From an uncultured Eubacteriales bacterium (GTDB taxonomy: Bacteria; Bacillota; Clostridia; Peptostreptococcales; Anaerovoracaceae): a stretch of DNA of 64,000 nt. The DNA is taken from positions 310,001 to 374,000 of the forward strand of contig CADAEH010000001.1 of NCBI GenBank assembly GCA_902786855.1. Reading direction: 5' to 3'. A program made the translations under genes and the position numbers. Shown here piece by piece: positions 13,909 to 31,410 of the stretch. A model generated the notes under the pieces. The model saw only the letters and a list, made by a program, of their open reading frames with translations. It was not told the origin of the DNA and searched no databases. Position 1 is the stretch's first letter, and every line of letters starts with the position of its first letter.

Positions 13909-15129
13909 ATGGAAAAGAAAAGAATCTACAAATACGACAACGTAAAAGCGTTTCTGATATTTCTTGTAGTTATCGGACACATGACCACTGATTATGTGTC
14001 CGATTCTCATATGGTGAGATGGATCACCCTGTGGATATATTCCTTCCACATGCCGGCATTCATCTTCATATCCGGTCTTGTGCACAAGCACTATATCACA
14101 GAAGAGAGGGCTTCTCTTGGCATCAAAGGCGAGACACGCCTCAGATGGGACAAGGTCCTCGGATTCTTCCTGTGCGCATACGGTCTCAAGATATTCCTGC
14201 AGTTCACAAGGACACTGATGGGGCAGCACCCATTATGGCACTGGATCGAAGAGCCGGGCATCCCATGGTATCTCTTTGTAATGGCGGAATACGAACTGCT
14301 ATTCTATGTGATGAGATATATTGACGGCGGGGCGTCAACCAAAGAGAAAACATATCGGCCGGTCATCATGATACTCGGAGCCTTTGCTCTCAGTGCAGTG
14401 ATCGGATACTTCCCGGCTGTAGGAGACACCTTCTGCCTGTCGAGAATGATCAACTTCCTGCCTATCTATATGATAGGGTACTATCTCGATATGAAAGCTT
14501 TCCTGCCATTACTGCAGGGAGAGAAATACGGTGCTGCAGGGAGCGGATCAGATGCAGTCAGCAAGAGCCCTAAACGCATCGCGATCGTTGCCTTCAGCTG
14601 GATCACCATCGCAGTGACGATGGCTGTCTGCTATTCCGGCAACTGGGGTATGTACAGCTGGAGAAAGTGGTTTACCGGCAGACGCTCATATGAATTCCTG
14701 CAGGGCTTCTTCAGCTATGCGATGAAAGACGGCTGGTGGATCAGGATAGTGGTGTGGCTCATTGCGCTTGCGATCACTTTTGCGATAGTAGCTCTTATAC
14801 CGGATAAAAACCTCGGATACATCACTACGATCGGTTCAAGGACTCTTTCAGTCTACTTCTGGCACAGACCGCTCTGCTATCTTTTCAGGAACTGGAAAGT
14901 ACTGCCGAGACTCTGCGTTCTCTTCGGCGGCACATATAACGATGCGGCTGCCGGGCAGGCCAAGGGGCTTGCTTTTGGCGGGAGCACATTGTCGATGGCA
15001 GCAGCCATGCTGACCTACTTGCTGATCGGGGCAGCCATGACAGCGTTCTTCAGCCTGAAGCCATTCGAGCATCCGACATCAGACCTTATGAAGCTTGGTG
15101 CAAAGATCGCCGGTGCCGGAAAAAAATAA
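13909..15129 (+). CDS. Acyltransferase 3 family membrane protein
   Basis: 406 residues with about ten membrane helices. The N-terminus RIYKYDNVKAFLIFLVVIGH (D10, H24) is the Acyl_transf_3 signature with its proposed catalytic histidine. Such proteins O-acetylate or succinylate sugars of surface polymers. The gene is 11 bases downstream of tagO and is followed by a strong terminator, so it likely ends the LCP-tagO-acyltransferase operon and may modify the same polymer. The acceptor sugar cannot be inferred. Confidence 0.85.
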   Translation: MEKKRIYKYDNVKAFLIFLVVIGHMTTDYVSDSHMVRWITLWIYSFHMPAFIFISGLVHKHYITEERASLGIKGETRLRWDKVLGFFLCAYGLKIFLQFTRTLMGQHPLWHWIEEPGIPWYLFVMAEYELLFYVMRYIDGGASTKEKTYRPVIMILGAFALSAVIGYFPAVGDTFCLSRMINFLPIYMIGYYLDMKAFLPLLQGEKYGAAGSGSDAVSKSPKRIAIVAFSWITIAVTMAVCYSGNWGMYSWRKWFTGRRSYEFLQGFFSYAMKDGWWIRIVVWLIALAITFAIVALIPDKNLGYITTIGSRTLSVYFWHRPLCYLFRNWKVLPRLCVLFGGTYNDAAAGQAKGLAFGGSTLSMAAAMLTYLLIGAAMTAFFSLKPFEHPTSDLMKLGAKIAGAGKK

Positions 15130-21325: not shown

Positions 21326-21351
21326 CGGCCTGCTTCAGCAGGCCGTTTTTT
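21326..21351 (+). terminator. Intrinsic terminator
   Basis: CGGCCTGC, loop TTCA, GCAGGCCG, followed by T6. It isolates the helicase operon from the upstream small genes. Confidence 0.92.
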
Positions 21352-21402: not shown

Positions 21403-21451
21403 AAACTAAACTACCAGAACAGTTGTTTGCGAACAGAAGTTCTGCTATAAT
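21403..21451 (+). promoter_or_regulatory. SOS-type promoter of the helicase-MoxR-VWA operon with AAACTAAACT element
   Basis: AAACTAAACT (21403-21412), 10 bases, TTGTTT (21423-21428), exactly 17 bases, TATAAT (21446-21451). The spacer holds GAACAGAAGTTC (21431-21442), which fits the Gram-positive LexA/DinR operator GAAC-N4-GTTC with a flanking C (CGAAC). A repressor bound here would block RNA polymerase. Start is expected near 21458, with ATG at 21507. Confidence 0.7.
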
Positions 21452-21506
21452 GCTAATCCCCAAAGCTTACGCTGATTTTGAATTCTATGAAAGGAAAGAA
21501 GCCTAT

Positions 21507-24500
21507 ATGGACATCTATAACAGGACCAGTCTGGCATTTAAAGCTGATATTCCGGACCGTACTCAGGACGGTGCTGCCGACAGAGTATCGGTCAGACCTG
21601 CTGTCATTGACCTGCCGCTTGATGATGCGTTCTTAGCCGGACCGCTCGGGGTCGCTGAGGAAGCGGCACCGGATGATACTGTGGGAACAGAAGCCGACCG
21701 GGATGCTTTGTGTGTCGCTGCCGGAAGTGTTGCTGATGAACTGGTTAAGTGCATCAGGGATACAGGTCATGTCGATATCCACCGGATATCCAAAGCAGCC
21801 CGCGTTACTGTGTCTGAGGCGATCGACTCGCTGAAAGGTGCCATATACTGCAACCCGGACATCTGGGGAGGCGACAGAACGCAGGGGTGGGAGACTGCCG
21901 ACGAGTATCTTTCCGGCAATCTCAGATACAAGCTCGCCAAAGCCAGGATCGCCAGCAAACTGTACAAGGGCACTACGTTCAGGGACAATGTCAAGGCGCT
22001 CGAGGCCATCATGCCTCCTGAACTTGCGGAAGAGGATGTCTATGTTACTCTCGGGTCGCCATGGCTTCCTGAAGATATCATAGATGACTTTGTCAACTAT
22101 CTGGTGCAGCCGCATACCTTTGACAGGTGCAGAGATACCAAGCACGATACCGAGACCGGCAGCTGGGAGATCCCTGACAAGGGCAGGTACGGCAGATACG
22201 TGCGCAATGTGAGTACTTTTGGCACTAAGAGGATCGATGCAGTACATATCATCGAGCGTTCTCTCAACATGAAGACCATCCGTATTACGGATGAGGTGTC
22301 ATCCACTACGACCAAGTCAGGCAAAGCCAGGGTCATCAACCGCGAAGAGACGGCTGCTGCTCAGGAGAAGCAGCGCCTTATTATCGCAGAATTCCGCCGC
22401 TGGATCTGGCAGGATGCTGAGCGTAAGCGCAGAATAATGAAGATCTTCGAGACCAGATACGCTTGCATAGCTGCGCGCAGGTTCGACGGCAGGTTCCTTG
22501 AGTTCCCGGGAATGGCTGACGATGCAGAGCTCTTTCCTTACCAGAAGGATGCGGTCGCAAGGATACTCTTCACCCCGAATACTCTGCTCGCCCATGATGT
22601 AGGTGCGGGCAAAACATACATCATGATAGCCGCAGCTATGGAACTGAAGCGCCTCGAAATGGCGGAGAGGAGCATGTTCGTAGTACCGAACAACCTCGTC
22701 GGACAGTGGTTCTCCATTTTCATGTCGCTCTATCCTGACGCGAAAGTGCTCTGTATCGAGCCTAAGGACTTTACAGAGGATAAGAGAAACAAGACCCTCG
22801 GACGTATCATCAGCGAGAACTGGGATGGCATCATCATTGCCTGCAGCTGTTTTGACAGGATACCGCTTTCCAGAAAGTTCTACATAGACGAGCTCATGGC
22901 TGAGAAGGAGGCCCTTCTCAAGATAAAGAGCAAGAAGAAAAAAGTCACGCCGAAATTCAACAGGAGACTCGAGAAGATCACCGGGGAGCTTGGCGATCTT
23001 GCCGTCTCGGACGATCCGGCGCGCAGATTCATCTGCTTTGACGACCTTGGCATAGACAGACTGTTTGTCGATGAGGCACACAACTATAAGAACATATCCA
23101 TCGACACTTCGATTTTTGGCATATTCGGTATCAACAGCAAGGGATCTGCCAAGTGCGACAGCATGCTGAGCAAGGTCCATCACGTGCAGAAGACCCATTG
23201 CGGCGGAGGTGTGGTCATGGCAACGGGTACGCCTATCACCAACTCCGTTTCGGACATTTTCGTTTTTCAGCAGTACCTGCAGAGCGGAGAGCTCGAGCTG
23301 CTCGGACTGCAGACCTTCGACAGCTGGGTAGGCATGTTTGCTGAGAAGACGACCGAGTTCGAGATCGCTGTGGACACCAACAGCTACAGGCTGGCGACAA
23401 GGTTCTCGAGGTTCCACAACATCCCTGAGCTGACTAACATCCTCGCTTCCATAGCGGACTTTCACAGCATCGACTCAGGAGAGGGCATTCCTGTGTTCAA
23501 GGGTTACACAGATGTCGTTGTGCCGAGGAGCTATGAACTCAAGGCATATCTTGAGGAGATCTCCAGGCGTGCCGATAAGGTCCACAACCGCAAGGTGAAG
23601 CGTGAAGAGGACAATATGCTCAAGATCACCGGAGACGGACGGCGCGCAGCGCTTGATATCCGGCTGGTCGCAGATGCAGGGAAGGATGGTTCCCGGCAGA
23701 GTAATGTGTTCGACTCATGGAGCATCGGCAGGTGCAAAGCATCAGAGTGTTCGGAGATCGTCGCGCGCATCTGGCATGCAACCAGAGATGACAGGCTCGC
23801 TCAGCTGATATTCTGCGATACTTCAACGCCTAAAGCAGGATTCAACATGTACGATGAGATCCGGCGGCGCCTTGTTGAGTTCGGCGTCACCGATGCTGAG
23901 ATAGCCTATATCCATGATGCGACGACCGATGCCAGGCGTGAGAAGCTTTTCAGAAACGTGCGGGAGGGACGTATCAGAGTCCTTATCGGCTCGACATTCA
24001 AGCTTGGGCTCGGGGTCAACGTCCAGGACAGGCTTATCGCCATCCATCATCTCGACCTGCCGTGGAGACCTGCGGATATGGTGCAGCGTGAGGGCCGTAT
24101 ACTCAGAGCGGGCAATATGAATGAAGAGGTCAGGATATACCGCTACATCACCGAGGGCAGCTTTGATGCTTACTCATGGCAGCTGCTTGAGACCAAGCAG
24201 AGGTTCATCACAGACATACTTTCCGGCACCGTCTCCGGCAGGAGCGGAAGCGAGGTGGATGACACTGTGCTGAACTATGCAGAGGTCAAGGCTTTAGCTC
24301 TCGGCAATCCGCTTCTGAAGAGCCGTGTCGAGACCCGAAATGAGATCACACGCCTTGCTGCACTTAAGCGAAAAGGCATAGAGGCCAGATTGAGACTGGA
24401 ACGGAGATACCGTGAGCTGCCTGACGAGATAGCGGCAAAAGAACTTGAACTCCGTACATGCATAGCAGACGCCGCTTATGTCCGTTCGCAGGGCAGCAAC

Positions 24501-24953
24501 CTTTACCGCGGTCGCACTGCGGCAGACAAAAGGCGCATTGCTGCATGGCGTAAATACCTGCGTGATAAGCTGGCTGTCGTTCTCCAGGATAATGTGATGA
24601 AGCCTGTCGAACGAGCCAATTTTGACTACAGAGGCTTCATGGTAGTGGCTCCTGCCGGCATGGAGGCTGAGTATCCTTACCTCTGGCTTGTCAGGGAAGG
24701 CCGTTACAGAGTCGACCTGGGTGACAAGGACGCAGGCATCATGATCAGGATAGACAATTTCCTCGATAAGCTTGCTGACAGAGCTAAAGTGGTAGGACGG
24801 CAGCTCGACATCCTCAGGCAGGAACTTGCCGAGACCGAGCAGGAGCTTTTGAAAGAAGTCGACTACACTGAGCAGATGGATGCTCTCGGCAGAAAGCTCG
24901 ATGAGATAGATGCAAGAATAGCATCAGGCGAAGTAAAACGCCGTAACAGTTAG
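21507..24953 (+). CDS. Large DEAH/SNF2-like superfamily 2 helicase
   Basis: 1148 residues from ATG 21507 (AAAGGAAAG upstream). An earlier TTG at 21423 is the -35 box and is rejected. An unknown N-terminal region (1-345) is followed by helicase motifs: the PYQKDAV Q-like motif, motif I G366-A-G-K-T, motif II D522-E-A-H, motif III A572-T-G-T-P, and motif VI QREGRILRAG (860-869). A charged helical C-terminus (about 920-1148) is coiled-coil-like. The layout recalls the helicase half of helicase/DNA-methylase proteins of plasmids, phages and integrative elements, but no methylase motif (NPPY) was seen. It is the first gene of a tight operon with a MoxR ATPase and a VWA protein. Probable role: ATP-driven remodelling of DNA or protein-DNA complexes. 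Confidence 0.85.
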   Translation: MDIYNRTSLAFKADIPDRTQDGAADRVSVRPAVIDLPLDDAFLAGPLGVAEEAAPDDTVGTEADRDALCVAAGSVADELVKCIRDTGHVDIHRISKAARVTVSEAIDSLKGAIYCNPDIWGGDRTQGWETADEYLSGNLRYKLAKARIASKLYKGTTFRDNVKALEAIMPPELAEEDVYVTLGSPWLPEDIIDDFVNYLVQPHTFDRCRDTKHDTETGSWEIPDKGRYGRYVRNVSTFGTKRIDAVHIIERSLNMKTIRITDEVSSTTTKSGKARVINREETAAAQEKQRLIIAEFRRWIWQDAERKRRIMKIFETRYACIAARRFDGRFLEFPGMADDAELFPYQKDAVARILFTPNTLLAHDVGAGKTYIMIAAAMELKRLEMAERSMFVVPNNLVGQWFSIFMSLYPDAKVLCIEPKDFTEDKRNKTLGRIISENWDGIIIACSCFDRIPLSRKFYIDELMAEKEALLKIKSKKKKVTPKFNRRLEKITGELGDLAVSDDPARRFICFDDLGIDRLFVDEAHNYKNISIDTSIFGIFGINSKGSAKCDSMLSKVHHVQKTHCGGGVVMATGTPITNSVSDIFVFQQYLQSGELELLGLQTFDSWVGMFAEKTTEFEIAVDTNSYRLATRFSRFHNIPELTNILASIADFHSIDSGEGIPVFKGYTDVVVPRSYELKAYLEEISRRADKVHNRKVKREEDNMLKITGDGRRAALDIRLVADAGKDGSRQSNVFDSWSIGRCKASECSEIVARIWHATRDDRLAQLIFCDTSTPKAGFNMYDEIRRRLVEFGVTDAEIAYIHDATTDARREKLFRNVREGRIRVLIGSTFKLGLGVNVQDRLIAIHHLDLPWRPADMVQREGRILRAGNMNEEVRIYRYITEGSFDAYSWQLLETKQRFITDILSGTVSGRSGSEVDDTVLNYAEVKALALGNPLLKSRVETRNEITRLAALKRKGIEARLRLERRYRELPDEIAAKELELRTCIADAAYVRSQGSNLYRGRTAADKRRIAAWRKYLRDKLAVVLQDNVMKPVERANFDYRGFMVVAPAGMEAEYPYLWLVREGRYRVDLGDKDAGIMIRIDNFLDKLADRAKVVGRQLDILRQELAETEQELLKEVDYTEQMDALGRKLDEIDARIASGEVKRRNS

Positions 24954-24964
24954 GAGGACCGCAT

Positions 24965-26095
24965 ATGAGCAAGAATACTACAGATAATAATCCGAGCCTC
25001 AGCAATGTGCCGGCAGTGAATGTCGGCGAGGCTGTAAGCAGACTGTCAGACATGTACTGCAGGGTCATCACTGCAGGTCTGCCGCTCAGCACGGTCCCGT
25101 CTGTCATGATGTGGGGCCCTCCCGGCGTCGGCAAGTCACAGGCAGTCAGGCAGATAGCGGACAGGATAGGGTCAGGCACGGGCAAAACAGTCCGTGTAAC
25201 CGATGTCAGGCTGCTTCTCTTCAATCCGATCGACCTCAGAGGAATACCGACTGCCAACGAGGACAAGACACTGGCTGTCTGGCTCAGACCTAAGATCTTC
25301 GATATGGATGCTTCTGCAGATGTTATCAACATCCTCTTTCTCGATGAGATCTCTGCAGCACCACAGTCAGTACAGGCTGCTGCCTACCAGATAACGCTCG
25401 ACAGAACGGTCGGCGAGCACAGGCTGCCTGCCAACTGTATCGTCATCGCTGCGGGCAACCGGGTCACCGACAAGTCAGTCGCGTATAAAATGCCTAAAGC
25501 ACTTGCCAACAGGATGATGCACCTTGAGATCGCGGGATCTTATGAGGCATGGAGAGCCTGGGCGGTTTCGCACGGCATAAATGAGAAAATCATTGGTTTT
25601 CTCGCGTTCAGGCCAGACCGTCTCATGGGATTCAGCCCGGGCAATGACGATCTTGCATTTGCCACCCCGAGAGCCTGGGAGATGGTCAGCAACCTGATGA
25701 ACAATGTCAGTGATGACATTGATGAGATGTTCACACTCATGGCAGGGATCGTCGGAAGCGGTGTCGCTGTCGAGTTCAGGACCTGGGCTTCTGTTTACAA
25801 TACCCTGCCTGACGTGGAGGCTATCTTCGACGGTACTGAGCATAAAGTACCCCGGAGGACGGACACTTTATATGCGCTGATATCCGCCATGACAAAATAC
25901 GCATCTGAGCATCGTGATGAGATAGACAGGATCGCCAATTCCATAGCATATGCAGACATGATGCCGGCTGACTTTTCGACTGTACTGATGCAGGACTATC
26001 TGAATATAGAAGAAGGCTACCGCATCAGACTCATGGGTATACCTGAATTCACCAGATGGCTCCGCACAAAGGGTGCGCTGCTCAACGGGATCTAG
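24965..26095 (+). CDS. MoxR-family AAA+ ATPase
   Basis: 376 residues. Walker A is GPPGVGKS (51-58), Walker B ILFLDEIS (123-130), sensor 1 AAGNR (162-166), and R183 in ANRMMHLEI is a candidate arginine finger. MoxR ATPases usually act with VWA-domain partners as chaperones that insert cofactors or remodel protein complexes. The AGGAGG ribosome binding site overlaps the end of the helicase gene, and the VWA partner gene starts 11 bases after the stop. This strongly supports a MoxR-VWA pair working with the helicase. Confidence 0.9.
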   Translation: MSKNTTDNNPSLSNVPAVNVGEAVSRLSDMYCRVITAGLPLSTVPSVMMWGPPGVGKSQAVRQIADRIGSGTGKTVRVTDVRLLLFNPIDLRGIPTANEDKTLAVWLRPKIFDMDASADVINILFLDEISAAPQSVQAAAYQITLDRTVGEHRLPANCIVIAAGNRVTDKSVAYKMPKALANRMMHLEIAGSYEAWRAWAVSHGINEKIIGFLAFRPDRLMGFSPGNDDLAFATPRAWEMVSNLMNNVSDDIDEMFTLMAGIVGSGVAVEFRTWASVYNTLPDVEAIFDGTEHKVPRRTDTLYALISAMTKYASEHRDEIDRIANSIAYADMMPADFSTVLMQDYLNIEEGYRIRLMGIPEFTRWLRTKGALLNGI

Positions 26096-26106
26096 CGAGG
26101 TGCAGA

Positions 26107-27360
26107 ATGGAACTGACACAGGCTAAGCAACGGGAATACATACGCAGGATCATGATCGCCCGCATGACTATACTATCCAGAAACGGATTCTTCGGACTGC
26201 TTCTGATGCACATGAGGTTCGCTCTTGATGAGTCTGTGGGAACGGCAGCGACGGATGGTGAGCGCATATATTTTGCACCGGCCTTTCTCGACGAGATCTC
26301 TGATCCTGAGCTGGTCTTCATACTGATGCATGAGATCATGCATGTTATTCTGAAACACACATTCAGAACAGGGGAAAGAGAACATCTGCTGTTCAATGTC
26401 GCCTGCGATATCGTAGTTAACTCGAACATTATGGATGCAGCCGGCGGCGATGCCAAAAGTATCACTCTGGCCAGGTACGGACCGTCAATGCATACGGCAC
26501 CTGACGGGACGGCCGGCAGCCTCCACACAGCAGAAGAAGTCTACGAGATGCTTCTGTCAGCTGCAGGGAGGCAGCCACAAGGGGCATCAGGTGCCAATGC
26601 GCAGCTTTCAGTCTCCGGCTCTGGTTCCGGCGGCATGAACCGGGGTTCCGGTTTCTCTGATGATCACTCTAAATGGGGTACAGCAGAGGACAAGCATATC
26701 GATGAAATGTGGAAGCAGCGCATCAGAGAGGCCTATGAAGCCGCATCGGGTCGTATAATCGGCACAGGAAAGGGCATCGGAGATCTGCCTGCAGGAGTCG
26801 ATCGTATGCTTCGCGAACTCATGGAACCTAAGACAGACTGGCGGATCCTCCTCAATGATTTTGTCCAGGAGGAAGTGGTAGACTATTCCTTCTCACCGTC
26901 CGACAGGAGATTTTCAGACAGTCCTTTCTTCCTGCCTGACTATAATGAGACCGACATCACAGTTAAGAATATCCTGTTCTGGATAGACACTTCGGGGTCT
27001 ATGACCGATCAGGAGATAACTGAGGCATATTCTGAGATCAAGGGCGCGATCGATCAGTTCGGCGGCAGGCTTGAAGGATGGCTCGGCTTCTTTGATGCTG
27101 CAGTCGTACCGCCGGTCCCTTTTGCTGATGAGAATGAATTCAGCGTAATAAAGCCAAAAGGCGGCGGCGGCACCAGCTTCAAAGTCATCTTCGAATATGT
27201 GCAGGAAGAGATGGCAGATATGGAGATAGCCAGCATCATCATTCTTACCGACGGTTACGCTTCTTTTCCTGACAAGAGCGCCGCCATGGGCATCCCGGTC
27301 CTGTGGATGATAAATAATGATCAGGTAGACCCACCGTGGGGAAAAGTCGCACGGATCTGA
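26107..27360 (+). CDS. VWA-like protein with N-terminal HExxH metallopeptidase-like domain (DUF2201 type)
   Basis: 417 residues from ATG 26107 (GAGGTG just upstream). The N-terminal domain has LMHEIMHVILKH, i.e. H75-E76-x-x-H79 plus H84, a zinc-peptidase-like motif. A Gly/Ser-rich linker (about 160-185) follows. The C-terminal VWA-like domain has the MIDAS residues D294-T-S-G-S298, T356 and D382 (ILTDGYA). Proteins of this layout are regularly encoded next to MoxR ATPases. Whether the HExxH domain is proteolytic is unknown. It is the last gene of the helicase-MoxR-VWA operon. Confidence 0.85.
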   Translation: MELTQAKQREYIRRIMIARMTILSRNGFFGLLLMHMRFALDESVGTAATDGERIYFAPAFLDEISDPELVFILMHEIMHVILKHTFRTGEREHLLFNVACDIVVNSNIMDAAGGDAKSITLARYGPSMHTAPDGTAGSLHTAEEVYEMLLSAAGRQPQGASGANAQLSVSGSGSGGMNRGSGFSDDHSKWGTAEDKHIDEMWKQRIREAYEAASGRIIGTGKGIGDLPAGVDRMLRELMEPKTDWRILLNDFVQEEVVDYSFSPSDRRFSDSPFFLPDYNETDITVKNILFWIDTSGSMTDQEITEAYSEIKGAIDQFGGRLEGWLGFFDAAVVPPVPFADENEFSVIKPKGGGGTSFKVIFEYVQEEMADMEIASIIILTDGYASFPDKSAAMGIPVLWMINNDQVDPPWGKVARI

Positions 27361-27390: not shown

Positions 27391-27419
27391 ATGACACAGC
27401 AGATCCTCCATACTATAAT
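27391..27419 (+). promoter_or_regulatory. Promoter of the 170-residue gene
   Basis: ATGACA (27391-27396), 17 bases, TATAAT (27414-27419). Upstream, CTTAACT ending at 27381 is only a weak 6-of-10 match to the island AAACTAAACT element. Confidence 0.6.
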
Positions 27420-27554: not shown

Positions 27555-27581
27555 GACATCAAGTCATATGGAGGACTTAAA

Positions 27582-28094
27582 ATGAGATACACTTCAGCTC
27601 AGGCAAACAAACTTCTCAGAAAAATCACAAGCAGAAAGGCGGACCTCGAGTCCAAAGAGCGCAAGAGCTCAACTTTCCGCGTTGCCTCGGGAGAGGACAC
27701 GGAGTCTCTCAGACCAAAATACGACTTCGCCTCTGTGCAGGCAGAACTCGATGAGCTCGAAGACATGGCGCGCAAGGTCAAGCACGCCATCAACGTCTTC
27801 AACACCACCCACACGCTGGATGGCTTCGATGGCCTGACCATCGACCAGGCTCTGGTGTACATCCCGCAGCTGAACTGCCGCGTCAGCAAGCTGAGGGACA
27901 TGGCGGGAGCCATACCAAAGCATCGCATTGACGACTACAGAAACAACTTCGTTGACTACTCCGTGGTCAACTACGACATCGAAGAGGCTGAAAAGGCCTA
28001 CCAGGCAGCTCAGGAGAAGCTGGCTGCCATGCAGCTCGCACTCGATGTCGCCAACGCATCGGAGACGATGGAAATCGACGTAGAACTCGATTAG
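27582..28094 (+). CDS. Conserved-looking unknown helical protein (DIP1984-like by eye)
   Basis: 170 residues from ATG 27582 with GGAGG upstream. Upstream in-frame codons are part of the structured leader. The protein is helical and charged: an N-terminal coiled-coil-like segment (LLRKITSRKADLESKE), a central HAINVFNTTHTLDGFDGLTIDQALVYIPQL, and an acidic end. The N-x-T-N/T-T plus L-T-I-D-x-A-L pattern recalls the DIP1984 family of unknown function; this is from memory only. No signal peptide or membrane helix. It has its own promoter and leader. Confidence 0.65.
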   Translation: MRYTSAQANKLLRKITSRKADLESKERKSSTFRVASGEDTESLRPKYDFASVQAELDELEDMARKVKHAINVFNTTHTLDGFDGLTIDQALVYIPQLNCRVSKLRDMAGAIPKHRIDDYRNNFVDYSVVNYDIEEAEKAYQAAQEKLAAMQLALDVANASETMEIDVELD

Positions 28095-28254: not shown

Positions 28255-28340
28255 TATTTATTACGATAGTAATAACAGCACGCAAGGATGCAAAAGTTCA
28301 TTGAAAACCTTCCCGCGGCCGAGGTACGGTTACAGGCCGC
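28255..28340 (+). repeat. 86-bp direct repeat, left copy, flanking an AT-rich cassette
   Basis: 84 of 86 bases are identical to 29128-29213, offset 873 bases. It starts with the inverted repeat TTATTAC-GATA-GTAATAA (28258-28275) and ends with a GC-rich hairpin CGCGGCC...GGCCGCG (28314-28341). The two differences are A28280/G29153 and G28335/A29208. Confidence 0.92.
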
Positions 28341-28407
28341 GTCATTATCAGATTACAAAGAACAGGCAATTGGAGTTTTGCCTTAAGAACAGCAGGACCT
28401 GACCTAG

Positions 28408-28550: not shown

Positions 28551-29105
28551 ATGGAATATCACTACATAGGATTAACAGGAAGTATAAATGGAATAATTAA
28601 ACAACTTGAAGAAGAAAATATTCCATGGGAATACGCAGAAAAAAGCAATGAAATGCTTATCAACGCAATAACCTGCGATATTACTCCAGAAAAAATGACT
28701 GAATACCTAGATAATGTTTTAATTCGTTATTCAAAAATATTACCAATTCCTAAAAAAGTAATTAGAAATAATATCGTAGACGACACAATAATAGCACATC
28801 TTTGTGATTTAGCTTATGTAAGACAAAATGAAAATGATGTTAATATCATTGATTCAGAAAAATTACATCCTGGAAAATTCACAAATGAATTTTATGAGAA
28901 TTATTTCTCAAAAATAGAAGAAGAACGAATTAAAAATGTAACTGATGAAGATTTAATCGAAGGACTTAACGACGCATTAACTAACTTAAAAGAATTAATT
29001 AATGCAAAAAACGATGAAGACAAAGATTTTCATCATGGTATGATAGAAACTTGCATTAAATCTACAATCACAGCATTAAATAATCGCATACAAAATAACA
29101 ACTAA
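28551..29105 (+). CDS. AT-rich cassette gene, unknown function
   Basis: 184 residues with AGGGGAAAAT before the ATG. Codon use is strikingly AT-rich (AAA, AAT, ATT, TTA) against the CTG/AAG/ATC-rich neighbours, a sign of foreign origin. The product is acidic, helical and soluble (EEENIPWEYAEKSNEM, then NDEDKDFHHGMIETCIKS). No known domain is recognised. Its size, acidity and placement between direct repeats are like many immunity or antitoxin proteins, but no toxin gene is visible. That reading is speculative. Confidence 0.6.
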   Translation: MEYHYIGLTGSINGIIKQLEEENIPWEYAEKSNEMLINAITCDITPEKMTEYLDNVLIRYSKILPIPKKVIRNNIVDDTIIAHLCDLAYVRQNENDVNIIDSEKLHPGKFTNEFYENYFSKIEEERIKNVTDEDLIEGLNDALTNLKELINAKNDEDKDFHHGMIETCIKSTITALNNRIQNNN

Positions 29106-29127: not shown

Positions 29128-29213
29128 TATTTATTACGATAGTAATAACAGCGCGCAAGGATGCAAAAGTTCATTGAAAACCTTCCCGCGGCCGAGGTAC
29201 GGTTACAAGCCGC
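29128..29213 (+). repeat. 86-bp direct repeat, right copy
   Basis: The match to 28255-28340 with two substitutions. It begins with the TTATTAC-GATA-GTAATAA inverted repeat (29131-29148). Similarity fades right after the GC hairpin, in which the right arm is slightly weakened (AAGCCGCA instead of AGGCCGCG). Confidence 0.92.
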
Positions 29214-29261
29214 AACATTACTCAAATGGAGACGAATCGCCTGAAAGCGCAAAAAAGCGAC

Positions 29262-29826: not shown

Positions 29827-31410
29827 TCAGATCCCGAGCATGTCTGCATACTCTGCGAGGGCACCGTCGGTCTCATGCGCGAGGACGCGTTTTGCCAGGA
29901 CCTTTCCGAGCTGTACGCCTTCCTGATCGAAGCTGTTCAGATTCCAGAGGAAGCCCTGGAACATGATCTTGTTCTCGAAGTGTGCGAGCAGGGCACCGAG
30001 CGAAGCCGGAGTCAGCTGGCTGCCGACGATGATGCTTGATGGGCGGCCACCATCGAAGTTCTTATTAGGATTCTCGTCATCCTTGCCGCATGCGAAGGCA
30101 ACGATCTGCGCAACGACATTAGCGCCGAGCTTTTTCTGGCTGGTGCTGCCCTGGATATCGACATCAACTCCGGACTGGTTTTCTTTGAATCCTATGAACT
30201 GAAGAGGCACGATGTCCTTGCCCTGATGCAGGAGCTGGTAGAATGAATGCTGACCGTTGGTGCCAGGCTCACCGAAGAGGACCGGACCGGTCTTATAGTT
30301 AACAGGCTCGCCAAAGCGGTTTACTGACTTTCCGTTGGACTCCATGTCTGCCTGCTGCAGATGGGCAGGGAACCTGGCCAGAGCCTGTGCGTATGGCAGT
30401 ACTGCTGTGCTCTCATATCCAAGGATGTTGCGCTCATATACTCCGATAAGAGCATCGAGCATAGCAGCATTCTTCATTGGGTCAGCCTGTGCGGCGAGCT
30501 TGTCTGCCTCAGCAGCGCCTTCAAGGAATTCAGCGAAAACATCAGAGCCGAAAGCAAGTGAGAGAACAGCTCCGCCTACTGCAGAAGTCGATGAATATCT
30601 GCCGCCGATATAGTCATCCATGAAGAATGCAGCAAGGTAATCGCTGCTGGAAGCGAGCGGTGAAGTTTCGCTTGTAACTGCTATCATGTGCCTGGATGGA
30701 TCGAGGCCGGCCTGAATAAGAGCATTCTTGACGAAAGCTTCGTTGGTCAGGGTCTCAAGCGTAGTACCTGACTTAGATACAAGAATAAATAGAGTATGAG
30801 CAACGTCAATGGTGTTAAGGACGCTTACAGCATCATCCGGGTCAACATTACTGATGAATCTTGCGTCCATCAGAAGTTTGCCGTTGGCGCGTGCCCAGTT
30901 CTCAAGTGCGATGTACATAGCACGAGGACCGAGGTCACTTCCGCCGATACCGATCTGTACTACAGTAGTAAACTTCTCGCCGGCAGCATTGCAGATCTCA
31001 CCTGAGTGGACCTTTACGGCGAACTCTGTGATCTTGGCCTGCTCTCCGGTATAGAAAGCTCTCTTGTCGACACCGTCGCTTACCACAGGATCGCCGAGCT
31101 GACCGCGGGTCAGATGGTGGAGTACGAGTCTCTTTTCGCCGGTGTTGATCATGGCTCCATTATAGAGTTCTTCGAATTTACCTGCGAGATCAGACTCAGC
31201 GGCAAGAGCAGCGAGGTTTCCGAGAACTTCTTCGTCGACCTGCTTTGCCGCATAGTTATATGTAAGACCGCATGCCATCGGTACAGAGTATCCACGTACT
31301 CTTGCGGCGCCGGCTTCACCGGCAAGAACTTCTCTAAGATCAACACGGTGCTCTGATGCAGTTAAAGTTTTGTATGCATCAAGCGTATCAAGATTTTTCC
31401 ATTCAGCCAT
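29827..31410 (-). CDS. pgi: Glucose-6-phosphate isomerase
   Basis: 527 residues, the length of the long PGI form. Recognisable motifs are GIGGSDLGPRAMY, the phosphate-binding SKSGTTLETLTNEAF, and GEPGTNGQHSFYQLLHQG with the catalytic histidine region. The enzyme interconverts glucose-6-phosphate and fructose-6-phosphate in glycolysis and supplies sugar precursors for the wall. The minus-strand ribosome binding site is AAAGGAAAG. It is a single-gene unit, convergent to the XRE gene and divergent from rpsF. Confidence 0.97.
   Translation of the reverse strand: MAEWKNLDTLDAYKTLTASEHRVDLREVLAGEAGAARVRGYSVPMACGLTYNYAAKQVDEEVLGNLAALAAESDLAGKFEELYNGAMINTGEKRLVLHHLTRGQLGDPVVSDGVDKRAFYTGEQAKITEFAVKVHSGEICNAAGEKFTTVVQIGIGGSDLGPRAMYIALENWARANGKLLMDARFISNVDPDDAVSVLNTIDVAHTLFILVSKSGTTLETLTNEAFVKNALIQAGLDPSRHMIAVTSETSPLASSSDYLAAFFMDDYIGGRYSSTSAVGGAVLSLAFGSDVFAEFLEGAAEADKLAAQADPMKNAAMLDALIGVYERNILGYESTAVLPYAQALARFPAHLQQADMESNGKSVNRFGEPVNYKTGPVLFGEPGTNGQHSFYQLLHQGKDIVPLQFIGFKENQSGVDVDIQGSTSQKKLGANVVAQIVAFACGKDDENPNKNFDGGRPSSIIVGSQLTPASLGALLAHFENKIMFQGFLWNLNSFDQEGVQLGKVLAKRVLAHETDGALAEYADMLGI

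Follow-up and report, generated by a model that had tools for sequence, protein, structure and literature searches.

Why should a bacterium place a DNA motor, a chaperone-like ATPase and a putative metallopeptidase behind what appear to be LexA operators? The question is raised by three tightly packed genes at positions 21403 to 27360 of a 64,000-nucleotide stretch of DNA (hereafter the window; contig CADAEH010000001.1, positions 310,001 to 374,000, assembly GCA_902786855.1) from an uncultured Eubacteriales bacterium of the Anaerovoracaceae. A reading made from the letters alone (the sequence-only reading) had described a promoter TTGTTT-17-TATAAT with the dyad GAACAGAAGTTC in its spacer, followed by the three genes, and all of this is present as stated. 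Judged by sequence, the operon may encode an accessory, damage-induced machine composed of a DNA translocase and an AAA+/metalloprotease pair, with defence against invading DNA as the best single guess for its purpose; we give this reading a probability of about one half.

Promoter and LexA-type boxes of the operon

GAAC-N4-GTTC is the core of the Gram-positive LexA operator. The operon promoter (21423 to 21451, forward strand) consists of TTGTTT (21423-21428), a 17 bp spacer and TATAAT (21446-21451), with TG at 21443-21444. Its extended -10 is perfect and its -35 is poor (3/6 consensus bases), for which reason a consensus scan did not list it. The sequence-only reading was right about the dyad in the spacer (21431-21442, forward strand) and overlooked a second one, GAACAGTTGTTT, which lies over the -35 at 21417-21428 on the same strand. 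The two boxes are spaced by 14 bp, and their dyads span the -35 and the spacer. TATAAT also stands directly behind the boxes in four related loci (L027, L028, L030 and L031).

A single GAAC-N4-GTTC match is weak evidence, because the window genome holds 24 such sites; 17 of the 22 inspected fall inside open frames, including the real recA box, by a crude frame call that misplaces that box. Lone matches were therefore rejected as evidence for LexA and replaced by the tandem arrangement and by a matrix trained on recA boxes. recA was sought in 41 genomes of the window's family, of which 37 matched and 30 returned loci, and in all 30 exactly one RAACN4GTTY dyad occurs in the 420 bases before the recA P-loop. 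The matrix, symmetrised and built from the recA boxes of 29 family genomes with the window genome excluded, ranks position 21416 first (16.0 bits) and 21430 second (13.4 bits) among 63,987 window positions, that is, the two operon boxes; the third-best score, 12.5, lies at an unrelated place. The genome's own recA box scores 19.5 and its uvrB box 14.3, so the operon boxes depart somewhat from the consensus.

The 26-bp tandem pattern occurs once in the window genome, still once with one mismatch permitted, and its reversed control not at all; five simulated 2.9-Mb sequences (first-order model, one strand) contain none. Seven of 148 family genomes carry it (the window genome, G038, G113, G002, G081, G014 and G106), with no control match among the rows listed. 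In G038 and G113, which belong to one genus, the tandem stands 52-54 bases before lexA itself; in G002 it precedes a putative DNA modification/repair radical-SAM gene, and in G106 it falls inside an open frame. Among the 24 loci related to the operon that have sequence before the helicase gene, five show an upstream tandem (the window, L027, L028, L030 and L031), and all five are close kin. For the window and its closest relatives the sequence gives good support to control by LexA, as the sequence-only reading had proposed, and we regard such control as highly likely in this lineage. In L030 (3260-3300) three LexA-like boxes, spaced 13 and 14 bp, stand in a row upstream of the helicase gene.

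The three proteins and their linkage

The first gene (21507 to 24953, forward strand) starts at ATG 21507, in a frame open from TTG 21423, and encodes a predicted SWI2/SNF2-type DNA translocase of 1148 aa. The protein matches PHROG 10089 (phrog_10089, DarB-like antirestriction) with 764.8 bits over residues 100-1164; the Pfam scan gave generic helicase domains only and found no methylase domain. What had been seen as a DEAH helicase related to mobile-element helicase/methylases, lacking a visible methylase, can now be described more sharply as the SWI2/SNF2 part of DarB-like methylase-helicases. Three giant proteins of the window's family (2399-2918 codons) align to it by their last half, at about 35% identity over some 1070 residues, and both giants scanned have an Eco57I-type methylase domain ahead of the helicase part. 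The helicase is matched in 18 of the 148 family genomes, with MoxR and VWA genes alongside only in G000 and G019 (short flanks) and giants or fragments in the rest; two further genomes of the window's genus gave no helicase match. A phylogenetic tree groups 26 helicases from trio loci in a single clade (support 100/99), separate from nine giants and four phage rows, and the helicases of the window, L027, L028, L030 and L060 cluster together (100/100). SWI2/SNF2 proteins of the DarB type are believed to move along duplex DNA without strand separation, and DarB shields P1 DNA in cis (PMC5512222); a later paper cautions that tests of plasmid-borne darB are confounded by restriction alleviation (PMC11109961).

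In one locus (L170:4216-6902) genes for Mob_Pre, ParB and AAA_25 are followed by a large serine recombinase gene that borders the trio helicase immediately ahead of its QREGRIL motif; the element seems to have integrated into the helicase gene instead of carrying it. Contig breaks in helicase genes were also considered as attachment sites and dropped, as the break points differ on a loose look at the locus table.

The second gene (24965 to 26095, forward strand) encodes a MoxR-type AAA+ ATPase of 376 aa, matched by PF07726 above its cut-off and by phrog_1297. The third (26107 to 27360, forward strand), starting at ATG 26107, encodes a metallopeptidase-like HExxH domain fused to a VWA domain (DUF2201_N and DUF2201); an alternative in-frame start, ATG 26056, would overlap the MoxR gene. 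Its product matches phrog_1314, DUF2201 and DUF2201_N (128.5 bits). MoxR and VWA proteins act as pairs. H92, E93 and H96, together with D311, S313, S315, T373 and D399 of the metal-ion-dependent adhesion site (MIDAS), are invariant in 25 rows (numbering from ATG 26056), and nine far wider rows keep the same residues except E93, which is Q in G343. From its family, the HExxH domain is expected to be a protein-cutting metallopeptidase. The peptidase domain is weakly similar to the SprT-like and M48 families (E about 0.0008, under the Pfam cut-off in both cases) and has a weak match to the small protein MJ1213 (E 0.0028). The predicted structure of the VWA protein is moderate (mean predicted local distance difference test score, pLDDT, 76.7; predicted template-modelling score, pTM, 0.56) with two rather confident halves, and was for this reason used only for the two-domain outline and for phage relatives. 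It is matched at E 0.001 or better by 83 viral models, the named top ones being phage metallopeptidase, VWA or uncharacterised proteins.

Do the three proteins belong together? A scan of genome contigs with the VWA protein yielded 34 related loci. The sequence-only reading took the three genes for one set, and the relatives bear this out: the order translocase, MoxR, HExxH-VWA is kept in 28 of the 34, some with the helicase gene cut by the contig end. In five of the other six the sequence starts after the point at which a helicase gene would be seen; the sixth, L031, is rearranged. The VWA gene of L034 is displaced 1.4 kb downstream. The helicase frame runs into the MoxR frame in 15 of 22 loci, and in 12 of these the overlap is 4 bases. 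Between the distance matrices of the three proteins the correlations are 0.88-0.91 (the same 22 loci), as high a value being reached in 0 of 2000 permutations; shared species history could account for part of this correlation. Because the gene order is kept, the frames overlap, the distances correlate and the HExxH and MIDAS residues are invariant, the three proteins probably work as one machine.

In the rearranged locus L031, on contig 4 of G531, a MoxR-VWA pair has no helicase gene in front of it and a tandem at L031:6715/6729; some 5 kb farther along comes a complete helicase gene, which has a tandem of its own at 14608/14622, and then an unrelated gene. The promoters of the two units share 78% identity across 129 bp that include the helicase start region. 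A search of G531 finds two MoxR copies, those of L031 and L060, and the coordinates of L060 place it in this genome. The simplest inference is that the operon was duplicated and each copy lost different genes, LexA-type control being retained on both. That both units kept this control points to a part for all three proteins in this lineage's SOS response.

Possible role of the trio and its rivals

The module is rare and patchy. The VWA profile matches in 14 of 391 genomes of the class and, at a stricter cut-off, in 3 of 398 genomes of the phylum, the window's included in both counts; at least 2 of the 14 class genomes coincide with the genomes of L036 and L057. A MoxR gene stands beside the VWA gene in all 14 (with one small open reading frame (ORF) between them in G299 and G472), and a helicase gene stands beside the pair in seven (as two frames in G378) and is absent in six; one contig ends too early. 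The flanking genes vary between loci. In a neighbour scan (139 proteins listed with five loci set aside; 138 scanned, the one that overlaps the VWA gene of L046 being omitted), the commonest families were the generic AAA domain (8 members) and then WYL (7 by Pfam, 8 by PADLOC). AAA/M41 proteases (c4) and AAA proteins with AAA_lid_6 (c6) recur, and a retron-type reverse transcriptase and a TIR protein occur once each. A WYL relative lies within 3.5 kb in 8 of 35 loci, in some divergent or directly adjacent, against 0.17 expected, an expectation that derives from ten genomes (22.4 Mb, 21 WYL genes), of which eight were picked for such a neighbour, and that ignores kinship between loci. None of the five loci with a LexA-type tandem is among these eight. 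WYL regulators are described as accompanying phage defence systems and DNA-damage responses (PMC9122588, PMC9122601). It is because the VWA gene is rare, the flanks vary and WYL regulators are over-represented that we favour an accessory, conflict-like role.

How might such a machine act? The first step is well supported by sequence: LexA would occupy both neighbouring boxes, which cover the -35 and the spacer, and leave at the onset of SOS. The further steps are suggested by protein family. The SWI2/SNF2 protein would move on double-stranded DNA and find foreign DNA, or DNA with a stalled complex; a MoxR AAA+ ring, docked via the MIDAS of the VWA protein, would remodel a protein on that DNA; and the HExxH domain would cut the remodelled, DNA-bound protein. 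The machine would most likely serve to counter phage, prophage or mobile DNA, a task to which SOS is naturally suited as the trigger, and the DNA motor would fill the place of the sensor protein in described MoxR-vWA-peptidase systems.

The nearest of these systems combine MoxR and a vWA-fused peptidase with a third, iSTAND component thought to sense invaders (PMC12839542; related systems in PMC7159879). The trio is like them in its MoxR AAA+ protein, its vWA-peptidase fusion and its possession of a third component, and differs in that this component is a DarB-class SWI2/SNF2 translocase and in its LexA-type control. Its HExxH type of metallopeptidase, a further difference, is described as rare among the effector domains (PMC7159879). 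None of the described third components (iSTAND, VMAP, beta-propeller) was found in the operon, where the bpMoxR model stayed below its cut-off and no dedicated iSTAND or VMAP model was run. Jumbo phages of group 2.2 carry a MoxR and metallopeptidase-vWA pair, the same two kinds of protein, which is named a chaperone/cochaperone with a proposed part in virion assembly (PMC7824862); so does phage N4, as gp24 and gp25. Among phage records, 810 match MoxR at E 1e-5 (some perhaps other AAA ATPases) and 547 match the VWA protein; the two genes are adjacent in N4 and ten gene numbers apart in phage G. The VWA proteins of N4 and phage G keep HExxH and MIDAS at 26% and 33% identity to that of the window, but unlike the trio neither phage has a translocase annotated beside the pair in the stretches read. 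N4 gp25 (L137:6028-7170) is recorded as an HNH endonuclease, and PHROG 1314 is labelled alike, yet gp25 keeps HExxH and the VWA MIDAS.

With DarB-like antirestriction proteins such as DarB of phage P1 (PMC5512222) the trio translocase shares the SWI2/SNF2 half, whereas it lacks the methylase half, has 1148 aa against 2399-2918, falls in a separate clade and is linked to a MoxR/VWA pair. DISARM DrmD, Zorya ZorD and BREX BrxH have superfamily-2 motifs in common with it; these matches are partial (DrmD 55 bits against a curated cut-off of 610), and the operon has no further gene. The sequence-only reading knew of no described system with exactly this set, and none was found in the literature searched, a search that subscription papers and supplements lay outside. 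We read the trio as a variant of the MoxR-vWA-peptidase systems whose third part is new. More tentatively, it could represent a new ternary class in which a translocase, not a sensor domain, steers a MoxR-driven metalloprotease to proteins on invading or damaged DNA. In one lineage LexA would couple its expression to DNA damage; in others WYL regulators might do so. If so, DarB-type DNA motors and phage-type MoxR/HExxH-VWA pairs, both poorly understood, would be joined in a single machine whose trigger is likely to be DNA damage. A cassette of three genes that responds to a defined inducer lends itself to testing, and the answer would bear on the many phages that carry the MoxR/VWA pair.

Several observations weigh against a damage-induced defence machine. 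Homologous operons lacking a LexA box, which the sequence-only reading had named as telling against itself, do exist: 19 of the 24 loci with upstream sequence have no tandem, distant copies being without LexA boxes, and LexA control as a general property of the trio was rejected on this ground. L060, of the same clade as the window, also lacks the tandem. The boxes of L027 score low (8.9 and 6.9), as do those of its near-copy L028, and by eye no box is seen in the 300 bases before the window genome's own lexA. PADLOC 2.0.0 gave no full-length match to the trio (none for the VWA protein, weak or partial ones for the other two) and nothing for the two downstream neighbours scanned. A housekeeping gene, read as phosphoglucose isomerase (29827-31410; PF00342), lies nearby. 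Finally, G343 has a MoxR/VWA pair without helicase (L144:7071-8435) in which HQxxH replaces HExxH, perhaps a dead peptidase.

Could the trio instead serve DNA repair? Its task would then be to clear protein-DNA complexes that are covalent or tightly stalled, which the translocase would reach, MoxR unfold and the HExxH domain cut in a Spartan-like logic; SOS control would be ordinary. The operator type shared with recA and lexA fits this, as do the weak SprT-like/M48 and MJ1213 similarities of the peptidase domain and the LexA-type tandems on both split units of G531. However, the trio is rare and patchy for a repair pathway, its WYL-type neighbours and variable contexts fit conflict better, and the SprT match is weak; we consider repair a doubtful explanation.

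Still less probable is that a DarB-like translocase and a phage MoxR/HExxH-VWA pair are captured phage or plasmid genes which still serve a mobile element, in anti-restriction or virion maturation, and are carried as cargo. Phages are known to carry all three families, one VWA relative has conjugation genes nearby on a plasmid, and two short IMG/VR contigs, each with large serine recombinases, contain the pair together with a partial helicase. Yet the trio helicases stand in one clade apart from the 13 DarB-like giant and phage rows, the element in L170 seems to have entered the helicase gene and not to have brought the trio, and the five window neighbours scanned with Pfam include no phage, structural or transfer protein, on which ground the operon was also rejected as part of a prophage. 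That another repressor with a GAAC/GTTC half-site binds the boxes is very improbable: the central bases of box 2 deviate from recA boxes, the L027 boxes score low and the genome's own lexA shows no box, but the operon has the two best matrix scores of the window and the same tandem precedes lexA in G038 and G113.

Operon borders and neighbouring genes

In the gap between the upstream gene and the operon lies a terminator-like hairpin (21326 to 21345, forward strand; 8 pairs, 7 of them GC, then a T-rich tail), a consensus match of which 7 were found in the region and 4.5 expected. Behind the operon, the next gene has a promoter-like site (27391 to 27419, forward strand; ATGACA-17-TATAAT, 11/12), likewise a consensus match (4 found in the region, 5.5 expected); both counts are within about one standard deviation of shuffles. 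The hairpin and the promoter-like site suggest that the transcription unit consists of the three genes alone.

Rfam at gathering scores gave no match in the window. Farther downstream, a 93-nt direct repeat (28255-28347 and 29128-29220; 96%) flanks an ORF of 184 aa (28551-29105) that has no family match above curated cut-off. Between this repeat and the operon, at 27558-28094, lies a small gene with weak similarity to DUF6847 (below cut-off), relatives of which occur 2-3 kb upstream of the trio in two loci (L028:159 and L058:386).

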